Shown in pieces: positions 28,629-34,415 of a DNA stretch of 34,415 bases. Below the pieces are notes generated by a model. It saw only the letters and a list, made by a program, of their open reading frames with translations. It was not told where the DNA came from and ran no database searches. Origin of the DNA: a virus. Positions within the stretch are counted from its first letter, which is position 1; the number at the start of each line of letters is the position of its first letter. Location of the stretch: the IMG/VR virus record IMGVR_UViG_3300028394_000194, positions 1-34,415 of that record; one strand, 5' to 3'. The translations under genes and the position numbers were made by a program.

Positions 28629-29378
28629 CTATGCTGTCGCTAGCATAATTACCCGTCTTTTATCATGTCCTACTGCATGGTCTGCAATTACTACGTCTTT
28701 AGCCTTTTTGGTAGTACCTCCGCATAACATGCAATCGGCGCATGTAGCCTTTTTGCCACCCTCTGCGCTAGCCGGACATGTAACCTCACCGGGTTGTTTA
28801 TCGATGCCTACCGATACCCTAAAAGAGCGCATACCGTAAAGGTTAGCTAACGCTGCATCATCGATGCTGTCCGCGCTAGCCATTACCAATGGAGACCATG
28901 CAGCATGGTCAAACCCGGTTTCTTTCCATTGGTGGCTATAACCGGCCCTAGCGGTAACGTACCGGCTAACCCTTTGCCACATGCTAACCGGCGCAGCTGC
29001 CGGGTCTCCATATGTACCTATCCGCAAAGCTTTACCGGCTAACGCTAGCGCTATAGTTTCCAGGCTAGCCTTTACGTACCTACCGCGCTTGTATGCGTTG
29101 TATACAGCCAGTACGCTGCGCCCTACGTTAACGTAGCATGGTGGTTTCCCGGTTTCTTTAGCGGTAATAGGTCTATGCTCACATGTACCGCATATGCTGT
29201 AATCTGCGCCGTTCTTTAGCGCAGCTACCGGGTTAACGTCAGAACGAATAATGAAGCTTTGCACAATAGCGCCGGTTTTAGCGTTATCACTACCGTTAAG
29301 CTTATTTATGATTACTACGATAGGTGCGCCGTCAATAGCGCTAGGGCCTTCGTATGCGATATAGCCTAGAATTTTCAT
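28629..29378 (-). CDS. Conserved phage Cys-cluster protein, first leftward gene
   Basis: 249 residues. The start MKILGYIAYEGPSAIDGAPI, SICGTCEHRP (61-70, C63 and C66), GTYGDPAAAP (121-130) and C201 followed by ATCADCMLCGG (C213, C216, C219) match a widespread uncharacterised phage family as I remember it (possibly DUF7227). Two separated cysteine groups suggest zinc or an Fe-S cluster. It is the longest gene of the early block and the first after the divergent control region, so it is probably expressed early and strongly. AAAGG lies before the ATG. A stem AGGGTTT/AAACCCT (28611-28617 and 28624-28630) follows the stop. Confidence 0.7.
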   Translation of the reverse strand: MKILGYIAYEGPSAIDGAPIVVIINKLNGSDNAKTGAIVQSFIIRSDVNPVAALKNGADYSICGTCEHRPITAKETGKPPCYVNVGRSVLAVYNAYKRGRYVKASLETIALALAGKALRIGTYGDPAAAPVSMWQRVSRYVTARAGYSHQWKETGFDHAAWSPLVMASADSIDDAALANLYGMRSFRVSVGIDKQPGEVTCPASAEGGKKATCADCMLCGGTTKKAKDVVIADHAVGHDKRRVIMLATA

Positions 29379-29437
29379 GGTACAACCTTTAAATATGCCT
29401 ACTAGGTTAGTAGATGACTAGAGTATAACGCTATCCT

Positions 29438-29545
29438 ATGCAATTATGCATGGTGTCAATCTATAGAATTGATACTAGGGTTTACCCTATACGACACCCG
29501 TAGTAGTAGGTAGCTACCTAGGTTATACTTAGACTGTAAAGTCTA
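29438..29545. repeat. Array of five perfect inverted repeats
   Basis: In order: ATGCA/TGCAT (29438-29451), TCAAT/ATTGA (29456-29472), TAGGG/CCCTA (29476-29489), the unbroken palindrome TAGGTAGCTACCTA (29507-29520) and TAGACT/AGTCTA (29530-29545). Loops are 4, 7, 4, 0 and 4 bases. Centres are 19, 19, 31 and 24 bp apart. Five different dyads within 108 bp look like a set of operators or an origin. Confidence 0.65.
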
Positions 29546-29819
29546 TAAACATACTAGGTGTTTATGATGTAGGTAATCGGTCTAGCAAATAGACTGAAGA
29601 GTATGGGGTTTGTCCCATCCCGTTCACTCCGCAACTATGTAGTCACTATGCGTACTCCATGCCTACGTTATGACTATGGGGTCTGGGTTGTGACTGCTCA
29701 GTCTACATTCCCCTACGCGCCCCGTGGTCATTGAAGTTGGGTTTCATATCCTGTGTGGTGTGACCTCCACATCCCGTCCCCCCCCATAAAAATTTAGGTT
29801 TCTGGCTACAAGATAAGTA

Positions 29820-29828
29820 TGCTAGTAT
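29820..29828 (+). promoter_or_regulatory. Candidate rightward promoter (extended -10)
   Basis: TG-C-TAGTAT: an extended -10 with four of six -10 bases, about 30 bases before the GTG-free ATG at 29858, whose GAGGAG site is at 29844-29849. No good -35 is seen, which is normal for extended -10 promoters. It would drive the long rightward unit. Confidence 0.4.
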
Positions 29829-29857: not shown

Positions 29858-30076
29858 ATGTTAGAGATAAAGAGAGAGAGCGGTTATGCAATTCCTGCTG
29901 CGAGGGTTGTGTACGCTTACCCTTATGAGGACATGGAGGTGGGGGATTCGTTTGTAGTGCCGGTAGCGGCTAGGGCCAAGGTGTTAAACGCTAACTACCG
30001 GGCGGGTAAGCGGTTACAGAGGGTGTTTATAGCTAGGACTGAGGGTGAGTCCATACGCATTTGGAGAACGGCATGA
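29858..30076 (+). CDS. Small hypothetical protein, first rightward gene
   Basis: 72 residues. Beta-rich middle YPYEDMEVGDSFVVPVAARA (about 26-45), then a basic helix and FIARTEGESIRIWRTA. This D-M-x-V-G-D-S-F-V-P arrangement is seen in many small phage and plasmid proteins of unknown function. GAGGAG is eight bases before the ATG. The stop overlaps the next start (ATGA). Confidence 0.65.
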   Translation: MLEIKRESGYAIPAARVVYAYPYEDMEVGDSFVVPVAARAKVLNANYRAGKRLQRVFIARTEGESIRIWRTA

Positions 30077-31846: not shown

Positions 31847-33597
31847 ACTTTAACTTAGACCACTTCTACAAGTTCTGTAGCGAACTCAAGATTGAGACTA
31901 AGGAAGAAGGCCTAAAGAAGATGGGCAACCTTCTGGGTACGCAGAAGTACGTCATGGAGGAAATACAGAAAGGGCTGGCAAATGACATCCATTTCTTTGT
32001 TATCCTAAAAGGCAGGCAGCTAGGCATCACTACCGTCAGTCTTGCCCTTGACCTCTACTGGCAGTTCACACACCCCGGATGGCAGGGGACTCTGGTGGCA
32101 GACACAGAAGAGAACAGGGACATGTTCCGCTCTACGCTGGGTATGTACATGGACGGGCTACCCAAGGAATACAAGATACCCCTGATAGCCCACAATCGTA
32201 ACCAGATGGTTCTGAAAAACAGAAGTCGTATCTTCTATCAGATTGCTGGTAACAAAAGTAGGCTAGGGCAAGGCAAGGCTATCACTTACCTTCACGGTAC
32301 AGAAACTGCTAGTTGGGGCAATGAGGAAGGATTAGCCTCCCTGATAGCTTCTCTAGCAGAGAAGAACCCAGAGCGGCTGTACATGTTTGAAAGCACAGCG
32401 CAGGGCTTTAACATGTTTCACGACATGTACAAGGTAGCCAAGTCTGCCAAGACCCAGAAAGCAATCTTCTGCGGCTGGTGGCGTAACGAATACTACTCCG
32501 TAGATGCCAGCAGCAACATCTACAAAGTTTATTGGGATGGCAGGCTCACCCCAGAAGAGAAGGAGTGGACAAAAGATATTAAGAAACTTTACGGCGTAGA
32601 GATTAACTCCCGTCAGATGGCGTGGTGGCGCTGGAAGCTAAGTGAAGGTATCAAGGATGAGTCCCTGATGTACCAAGAGTTTCCTCCTACAGAGGACTAC
32701 GCCTTTGTGATGACCGGCACTTCCTTCTTCTCGCACAGCCGCTGTACAGAGTCTGCCAAGGTTGCCAAGAAACAATTGCCAGACTGCTACCGCTATGTCT
32801 TTGGTCAGTCCTTCCAAGACACAGAGGTGCTGAAGTCCACTGAGCGTTTGGGTACGCTGAAGGTATGGGAAGAGCCTGTTGACACCGCTTACTACGTCAT
32901 AGGTGCTGACCCAGCCTACGGCAGCAGTGATTGGGCAGACAGGTTCTGCATACAAGTCTATCGCTGCTATGCCAACGGCCTAGACCAAGTAGCTGAGTTT
33001 GCTACCTCTGAGATGAACACCTATCAGTTTGCGTGGGTGATAGCGCACTTGGCAGGAGCCTACAAAAACTCTACACTGAACTTGGAAATCAACGGCCCCG
33101 GTCAGGCTGTCATTAATGAGATTAGAACCTTGAAGCGCATGGCAGTTAGCATGAACAACAAGATGGGGTCTGACCTGATGGACGTACTTGGCAACATGTC
33201 CAACTACCTCTGGCGGCGTAATGACTCTCTTGGTGGGCCAAGCATGAGCATAGGCTTTCTGACAACCAGTTCCACCAAAGAGCGGATGCTGGCCTACATG
33301 AAAGACTTCTTTGAGCGTGAGATGATGAACGTCATGAGCATGGACTTACTGGAAGAGATGAAGACCATCGTGCGTGAGGACGGGTTCATAGGAGCGCCGG
33401 GTAGAGCCAAAGATGACCGGGTGATAGCCTCTGCCTTGGCAGTGGTAGCCTTTGCAGAGCAAGTCCAGCCTCGCCTGATAGCCGCTAGGATTACCCGTGA
33501 GGTGAGTAAGTCACAGGAAGACTACACGGCAGAGCAGCTCTCTGTTGGCAGAAACGTCAGTGACTACCTTAAAAAGATAGGAATGTACGGCTCATGA
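31843..33597 (+). CDS. terL: Terminase large subunit
   Basis: 584 residues: ATPase motor and nuclease that pumps and cuts concatemeric DNA into the procapsid through the portal. ATPase motifs: K56-GRQLGITT (variant Walker A with Lys at the start and Ile in the usual Lys place), AITYLHGTE (146-154, Walker B-like with E154 as acid), and FESTAQG (182-188, coupling motif). Nuclease motifs: D356 in IGADPAYG, E415 in LEINGPG, and D524-D525 in AKDDRVIAS. Length and order fit T4/P22-like large terminases. No certain small subunit precedes it; the HTH protein downstream is a candidate. Confidence 0.92.
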   Translation: MNFNLDHFYKFCSELKIETKEEGLKKMGNLLGTQKYVMEEIQKGLANDIHFFVILKGRQLGITTVSLALDLYWQFTHPGWQGTLVADTEENRDMFRSTLGMYMDGLPKEYKIPLIAHNRNQMVLKNRSRIFYQIAGNKSRLGQGKAITYLHGTETASWGNEEGLASLIASLAEKNPERLYMFESTAQGFNMFHDMYKVAKSAKTQKAIFCGWWRNEYYSVDASSNIYKVYWDGRLTPEEKEWTKDIKKLYGVEINSRQMAWWRWKLSEGIKDESLMYQEFPPTEDYAFVMTGTSFFSHSRCTESAKVAKKQLPDCYRYVFGQSFQDTEVLKSTERLGTLKVWEEPVDTAYYVIGADPAYGSSDWADRFCIQVYRCYANGLDQVAEFATSEMNTYQFAWVIAHLAGAYKNSTLNLEINGPGQAVINEIRTLKRMAVSMNNKMGSDLMDVLGNMSNYLWRRNDSLGGPSMSIGFLTTSSTKERMLAYMKDFFEREMMNVMSMDLLEEMKTIVREDGFIGAPGRAKDDRVIASALAVVAFAEQVQPRLIAARITREVSKSQEDYTAEQLSVGRNVSDYLKKIGMYGS

Positions 33598-33983
33598 TTA
33601 TCCTAACTAAGAAAGAACTGCTGCGGCAGATGCAAAAGTTTTGTGCTGACAAGGAAAGAGGCATCTCTATCCCCCTGTTTTGCGAGTTAGCGGGAATACA
33701 CAAGGAGCATTTTCGGGATGTGTTCATCCGTCAGTGCGAACCGCTTACCGAATACGTCCAGATGCGGGTCAACAAAGCCTATACGCAATGGAAAGCAGGC
33801 AACGTCAAGGTAATGAGACGCAGGGATTTAACCCGTTATGTGGAGTACAGGAAGACACCAGAACCCCCCATGATGGCGGGTATGGGGCTGAAAGTTACCT
33901 CTGACGGGATAAAAATCAAGGTGGGAATGGTCAACCGCCATGATTACAGTGAAACTGACCTTAACGAAGCACTTAGAGGGTAA
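33594..33983 (+). CDS. HTH DNA-binding protein, candidate small terminase
   Basis: 129 residues. A helix-turn-helix with AraC-like spacing, ISIPLFCELAGIHKEHFRDV (about 24-43), is followed by YVQMRVNKAYTQWKAGNVKV, a helical oligomer-type segment. The C-terminal 30 residues are beta-like. ATGA overlap ties it to the terminase. A DNA-binding protein at this place would fit the pac-recognising small subunit, although that gene usually precedes the large one; it could equally be a regulator of late genes. Confidence 0.6.
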   Translation: MIILTKKELLRQMQKFCADKERGISIPLFCELAGIHKEHFRDVFIRQCEPLTEYVQMRVNKAYTQWKAGNVKVMRRRDLTRYVEYRKTPEPPMMAGMGLKVTSDGIKIKVGMVNRHDYSETDLNEALRG

Positions 33984-33985
33984 CT

Positions 33986-34415
33986 ATGGCTATCTTAAGA
34001 GACTACTACTGCGAATCACACGGCATCTTTGAGGCATGGGAGCCAGAATGCCCTATGAAGCTATGCAAAGCCGCTATTTCTGTTGTACACCTTAAACCAG
34101 TAGGTACAAGGTCTGCAAAGACGGCAAAAACGGATAAAACACTGGAAGGATTAGCCAAAGACTTCCAGATGACCGATATCAAGTCCACCAAAGAGGGTGA
34201 ACACCAAACAGGCTATCTCAAGCGCAACAACAAGCTAACTGACAAGCAATATGCCGAGGCTACAGCCGCCAGTGAGCACTTTGAGAGCCAAAAACCCAAA
34301 GAAGGACGGGCTGGTGACTCCGCAATCTGGGGAAATGGGGGTAACATATCTATGAAATCCGTACTTGGTGGACAATTTAAGTCCGTCATGGGAGAATCTG
34401 TAGGCATCAATCCCA
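33986..34415 (+). CDS. N-terminal part of the junction-spanning protein
   Basis: Begins MAILRDYYCESHGIFEAWEP with GAGGGT upstream of the ATG at 33986. C9, H12, C22 and C27 (C-x2-H ... C-x4-C) suggest a small zinc ribbon at the N terminus, followed by a hydrophilic Lys-rich region. It runs off the window at 34415, in the right frame to continue in bases 326-405 (total 169 residues). It lies directly after the HTH protein and before the portal. Confidence 0.85.
   Translation, partial: MAILRDYYCESHGIFEAWEPECPMKLCKAAISVVHLKPVGTRSAKTAKTDKTLEGLAKDFQMTDIKSTKEGEHQTGYLKRNNKLTDKQYAEATAASEHFESQKPKEGRAGDSAIWGNGGNISMKSVLGGQFKSVMGESVGINP
34091..34415. repeat. Right copy of the contig-end overlap
   Basis: Repeat of bases 1-325, with substitutions at 34102, 34144, 34222 and 34348 relative to the first copy. 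The copy ends exactly at the last base of the window. Confidence 0.95.

Follow-up and report, generated by a model that had tools for sequence, protein, structure and literature searches.

Operators of controller (C) proteins have the form GACTtatAGTC and are bound by XRE-like HTH proteins (PMC3115060). Structures at the 5′ end of an mRNA impede RppH and RNase E (PMC3997798). Here, we describe the gap between the divergent genes of an uncultured freshwater phage, which contains symmetric sequences comparable to both. We consider it reasonably probable that this gap is a bidirectional control region, in which a dimeric regulator acts on GACT-N4-AGTC and the early mRNA is led by a hairpin. Within this reading, we infer that the promoters are active, that repression takes place, and which protein binds. 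On the left, a sigma70 promoter, P_L, would drive the recombination operon, and its mRNA probably starts with a free-sequence hairpin, which would shield the 5′ end. On the right, P_R1 and a nearer promoter would drive the late operon, and a symmetric DNA-binding dimer would recognize GACT-N4-AGTC at 29532, 29633, and 29692. The phage group thereby gains a concrete operator sequence and a promoter map, and an early/late switch that can now be tested using synthetic DNA and a single small protein. With its compensatory change over many stems, the leader hairpin offers a clean natural test of 5′-end protection in phage early mRNA.

The divergent gap and its relatives

The window, meaning the whole stretch analyzed here, is the 34,415-base virus record IMGVR_UViG_3300028394_000194. 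Its ends (1–410 and 34006–34415) carry near-identical ORFs (123–326 and 34213–34410), and the final 60 bases repeat at 266–325. The two ends evidently overlap, the genome being either circular or terminally redundant. Among the proteins scanned, the rightward genes encode a glycosyltransferase-like protein, terminase, portal, capsid, holin, and endolysin, while the leftward genes encode a RecE-like exonuclease, a RecT-like annealing protein, and a weak SSB match. With regard to lysogeny, no integrase, repressor family, or cI/cro pair was recognized among these proteins, in agreement with the original prediction, which had recognized no repressor gene. Restriction-modification genes were not recognized either. 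The gap spans 479 bp. It is bounded on the left by a minus-strand gene of 249 aa (28629–29378; PHROG 2554, function unknown), whose first-gene position is not conserved in distant relatives, and on the right by a plus-strand gene of 72 aa (29858–30076), which is conserved across the phage group. The 72-aa protein is predicted to adopt a beta-alpha-beta-beta arrangement (pLDDT 87), for which a fold search gave no significant match.

The phage collection searched contained only two close terminases, both from uncultured spring-water phages with 73–74% protein identity, and no cultured close member of the group. Terminase relatives are encoded by at least 600 IMG/VR stretches. For comparison, 18 contig stretches with the same intergenic type were gathered, two of which are identical to the window across the region, and a second core-pattern scan yielded no additional relatives. 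About 40 distant relatives were added to the comparison. Since the intergenic region is mosaic among the relatives, its dyads can be judged one by one. Five dyads with perfect arms had been predicted in the gap, and they were recovered exactly (D1–D5, with arms of 5, 5, 6, 7, and 6 bp) across the 108 bp from 29438 to 29545, together with the unbroken 14-bp palindrome at 29507–29520 and the minus-strand TTGACA that the dyads overlap (TGTCAA on the plus strand, about 29454–29459). The further claim of a divergent control region with protein-site-like dyads also stands; leftward genes for recombination flank it on one side and rightward late genes on the other.

The GACT-N4-AGTC sites and their candidate binder

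D5 (TAGACT-gtaa-AGTCTA, TAGACTgtaaAGTCTA, 29530–29545), the putative operator O1, contains the core GACTGTAAAGTC at 29532–29543. O1 covers the predicted P_R1 start, and binding should therefore block or time rightward transcription. Two further operator places lie rightward of D5, at distances of 101 and 160 bp, and spacers there read AGGT, GAGT, GCTC, and GAGC. O2 (AACTATGTAGTC, 29633–29644) has one mismatch and takes the forms GACTAGGTAGTC in five relatives and GACTGAGTAGTC in one, while O3 (GACTGCTCAGTC, 29692–29703) recurs in seven further relatives, one of which has it as GACTGAGCAGTC. Across the 34 kb of the window, perfect GACT-N4-AGTC occurs only at 29532 and 29692, and the one-mismatch copy lies at 29633.

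Comparison of the sequences establishes an operator word with a fixed spacing that is confined to this region. The 17 close intergenic regions contain 23 copies of GACT-N4-AGTC, compared with 0.15 in shuffles, and none in which GACT and AGTC are separated by the adjacent spacings N0–N3 or N5–N7. The 8.2 kb of intergenic DNA from the relatives holds 21 copies against none in 124 kb outside, although these 21 copies are not independent, since same-position copies are inherited, and the independent support comes from three positions and from four or five different spacers. The word ranks first among 4-mer inverted repeats with spacings of 0–10. Across 36 relatives, the words most enriched in the dyad region are TAGACT (67 occurrences vs. 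11 in shuffles) and AGACTA (76 vs. 12). The D5 arms are altered symmetrically in three relatives (TAGTCT..AGAC), only variant O1 forms with GTCT or GATT arms are present in L130, L131, L134, L139, and L143, and no form of O1 was found in L063. In distant relatives, the half-site TAGACT is again the leading word, but its spacings differ. A ribbon-helix-helix array of TAGWCTA heptads was considered and rejected, as the heptads are present in some distant relatives only. Arms held in common around free spacers indicate that a protein dimer binds the DNA, as opposed to an RNA fold, and the three-copy set in the window probably represents regulator binding sites.

The original prediction had named HTH proteins at 23.4 and 33.6 kb as possible binders of the dyads. 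The 23.4-kb protein gave weak matches to an SSB family (E 0.017) and to a sigma-factor region (E 0.01). The other, a 129-aa protein encoded on the plus strand at 33594–33983, is conserved beside the terminase, and its predicted model contains an HTH that is weakly XRE-like (pLDDT 84), making it an unproven candidate binder. In a Foldseek search with this model, controller and XRE proteins lead the matches, with C.BclI first, at a weak best E of 0.1. VIA-align gave a Z of 7.2 for HNF1, the best match, and 5.6 for C.Kpn2I, values that may mean no more than a shared arrangement. Sequence profile searches were weak. The 129-aa protein is perhaps the regulator that binds the operators; it could equally be a small terminase subunit.

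Predicted promoters and the leader hairpin

P_L is predicted on the minus strand (29422–29449), with the −10 element TATACT (29427–29422), a 16-nt spacer, and a degenerate −35 element, GCATAA (29449–29444). Several relatives carry TTGACA-N16-TATAAT at this place, and both boxes are degraded in the window. The TTGACA overlapped by the dyads is not the −35 element of P_L, because it lies 26 bp from the leftward −10. On the plus strand, the candidate P_R1 is TAGTAG-N17-TATACT (29501–29529). The 16 sequences that carry the core (TTGTAC/TAGTAC-N17-TACAAT/TATACT) all space the two hexamers by exactly 17 bp, despite nearby indels. In the window itself, the boxes of P_L and P_R1 are weak, and a consensus promoter/terminator scan of the window returned no sigma70 promoter at either place and nothing else relevant. 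A proximal candidate, P_R2, is predicted from the extended −10 element TGCTAGTAT (29820–29828, plus strand), which most of the close clade retains. Element B (TGTGGTGTGACCTCCACATCCCGTCCCCCCCCATAAAAA, 29737–29795, plus strand) lies upstream of the right gene; it is a block strongly conserved across the phage group, with a C-run followed by A-rich DNA. Element A (TATGGGGTTTGTCCCATCCCGTTCA, 29602–29626) appears by inspection to be a weaker copy of part of element B.

The strongest symmetric element of the gap lies outside the originally predicted interval and had been missed there. It is a minus-strand leader hairpin (29398–29414), in which 29414–29410 pairs with 29402–29398, about 8 nt past the leftward −10. 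Across 13 relatives, all 65 of 65 cells are paired, 19 of them double-changed (0/500 shuffles), and four of the five pairs are changed on both sides. The covariation score is 0.836, compared with 0.241 in shuffles, and it is far lower after sliding. The stem sequences vary widely (CCTAC/GTAGG, CTCAC/GTGAG, CTATC/GATAG, CTTCC/GGAAG, and others). Three U-G pairs were seen, all of them on the minus strand, and this restriction of the wobbles fits RNA. Distant relatives show the same layout of P_L and hairpin, with a stem of at least 5 bp in five of six leaders vs. 0.6 expected. Consensus RNA folding missed the hairpin, which was revealed by pair counting. As befits a stabilizer hairpin, the stem is kept by compensatory change beside a predicted promoter, and it probably forms the 5′ end of the early mRNA.

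This hairpin is clearly an RNA element, and two other places behave in a related manner. D3 (TAGGGT-tt-ACCCTA, 29476–29489) is a dyad whose sequence varies but whose place, before GACACC, is fixed. In 16 sequences, its summed arm length is 74, compared with 57 for shuffled sequences and 59 for hybrid halves (0/300 each), and its arms are swapped wholesale between relatives while the position stays fixed. Like D3, the place at about 29623–29651 keeps hairpins with differing sequences. Such features would fit a reading of the dyads as structured RNA, either long-leader hairpins or a small RNA, instead of DNA sites. Nevertheless, when the dyad core and the entire region were folded as a consensus, neither strand did better than column shuffles, except for a weak signal around element B (z −2.15), and O1–O3 have arms in common, not folds. 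As an account of the dyads in general, structured RNA is unlikely, and we prefer DNA sites for a dimeric regulator beside a hairpin-led early mRNA.

In 41 of 54 loci (e.g., L060, L105, L101, and L109), a T6 tract lies upstream of the 72-aa gene. It is preceded by a hairpin in the aligned examples and mostly stands about 48 bp before the rightward gene, behind a promoter-like element. The tract and hairpin are possibly an attenuator of the late operon in these relatives; this attenuator-like element is absent from the window and the close clade. At L085:4272–4346, the leader of the 72-aa gene contains a tRNA-Met (CAT) gene, and a similar sequence is visible in L082. We also entertain, as a speculative scheme that is rather unlikely in its entirety, a large group of apparently lytic, uncultured freshwater phages in which an XRE regulator resembling controller proteins and encoded beside the terminase would time early and late transcription via GACT-N4-AGTC. 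The early mRNA would begin with a free-sequence 5′ hairpin, and the late operon of most relatives would have a promoter-proximal terminator.

The dyad cluster, competing readings, and known systems

The segment from 29438 to 29545 contains five non-overlapping dyads, compared with 1.33 in dinucleotide shuffles (p 0.002). The p value is 0.004 when the best 108-bp stretch of the entire intergenic region is considered, and the region as a whole has 11 dyads vs. 4.8 expected (p 0.012). A second site in the window, at about 28821, likewise reaches five dyads per 108 bp. The five-dyad density is high locally and not exceptional at the scale of the whole window. Further dyads flank the segment at 29399–29413, 29545–29565 (D6), 29580–29594, and 29692–29703. 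Since dyads lie on both sides, the interval is an arbitrary cut.

Conservation of symmetry in relatives, proposed originally as the test against chance, separates the dyads. D1 (ATGCA-atta-TGCAT, 29438–29451), located over the −35 element and spacer of P_L, is not kept and is probably a chance occurrence. D4, the 14-bp palindrome (TAGGTAGCTACCTA), fills the P_R1 spacer and fails the test; 83.9% of its cells are paired vs. 83.8% in shuffles, with a covariation score of 0.112 vs. 0.114, and it is probably incidental. D6 also shows no covariation. D3 stays symmetric with other sequences, and D5 is modest as a pair structure and strong as a repeated operator word. The arms of D2 (TCAAT-ctataga-ATTGA, 29456–29472; centered about −48 from the P_L start) are kept. 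Its word, CAAT-N7-ATTG, occurs 11 times with seven distinct spacers in 17 regions, and 10 times in the relatives' intergenic DNA vs. six times in 124 kb outside. D2 is kept 28–29 bp from the leftward −10 in the close sequences measured by hand and is, judging from these counts, a separate conserved site behind P_L. A palindromic −10 within D2 was tried as a rightward promoter and rejected, as no −35 stands at a constant distance from it.

A replication origin, in which the palindromes and AT-rich words would form an initiation site opened by host DnaA, had been offered as an option. No polymerase or helicase was recognized among the proteins scanned, 6 of 39 relatives carry perfect DnaA boxes in the corresponding gap (seven in 31 kb vs. 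19 in 322 kb elsewhere), and the GC skew becomes positive near 29.5 kb. However, the skew also tracks gene orientation. Moreover, the window has no perfect DnaA box, and TTATNCACA is absent from all 20 close-clade regions extracted. Origin function is thus unsupported in the close clade, and we regard it as quite improbable for the window, although it may apply in the wider group. The six relatives with perfect boxes (TTATCCACA) are the distant L070, L077, L081, L105, L110, and L124, where the boxes lie about 386–707 bp upstream of the 72-aa gene.

Still less probable is a single operator array, in which all five dyads would serve one repressor as in the switches of temperate phages. The dyad density above local shuffles and the location between divergent operons would suit such an array, but no half-site is common to the five dyads, D1 and D4 are not maintained, the relatives split the set, and the lysogeny families named above were not recognized among the proteins scanned. 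Least credible of all is a chance clustering of short, unrelated dyads in noncoding DNA that is AT-rich: five per 108 bp is reached in 5 of 20 whole-window shuffles and chance is still likely for D1 and D4, but it is contradicted for D5 and the leader hairpin by the operator and covariation results, and in 36 relatives the dyad region has 174 dyads vs. 99 in shuffles while coding controls fall below shuffles (37 vs. 56 expected). The intergenic excess and the coding deficit together indicate that symmetry enrichment is a property of the region.

The preferred reading, a control region with GACT-N4-AGTC operators and a hairpin-led early mRNA, can be set against three known systems. The operators of R-M controllers likewise have quasi-palindromic GACT...AGTC arms, and the 129-aa model has a weak fold likeness to C.BclI (E 0.1). 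In contrast, their spacer is 3 rather than 4, and N3 is absent from the close intergenic regions. They also consist of two adjacent dyads with a central GT within about 35 bp, whereas distances of 101 and 59 bp separate the sites here. The phage sites thus resemble this class without belonging to it. The gap resembles the divergent operator regions of lambdoid phages in having three related dyads that part the leftward from the rightward genes, one of them over a predicted start; here, the spacing is wide, and lysogeny genes and a cI/cro pair were not recognized among the proteins scanned. Finally, as in 5′-terminal stabilizing mRNA hairpins, the leader hairpin stands at a predicted start, with free sequence and conserved pairing, here known from sequence comparison. 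It is most simply read as a 5′-terminal mRNA hairpin.
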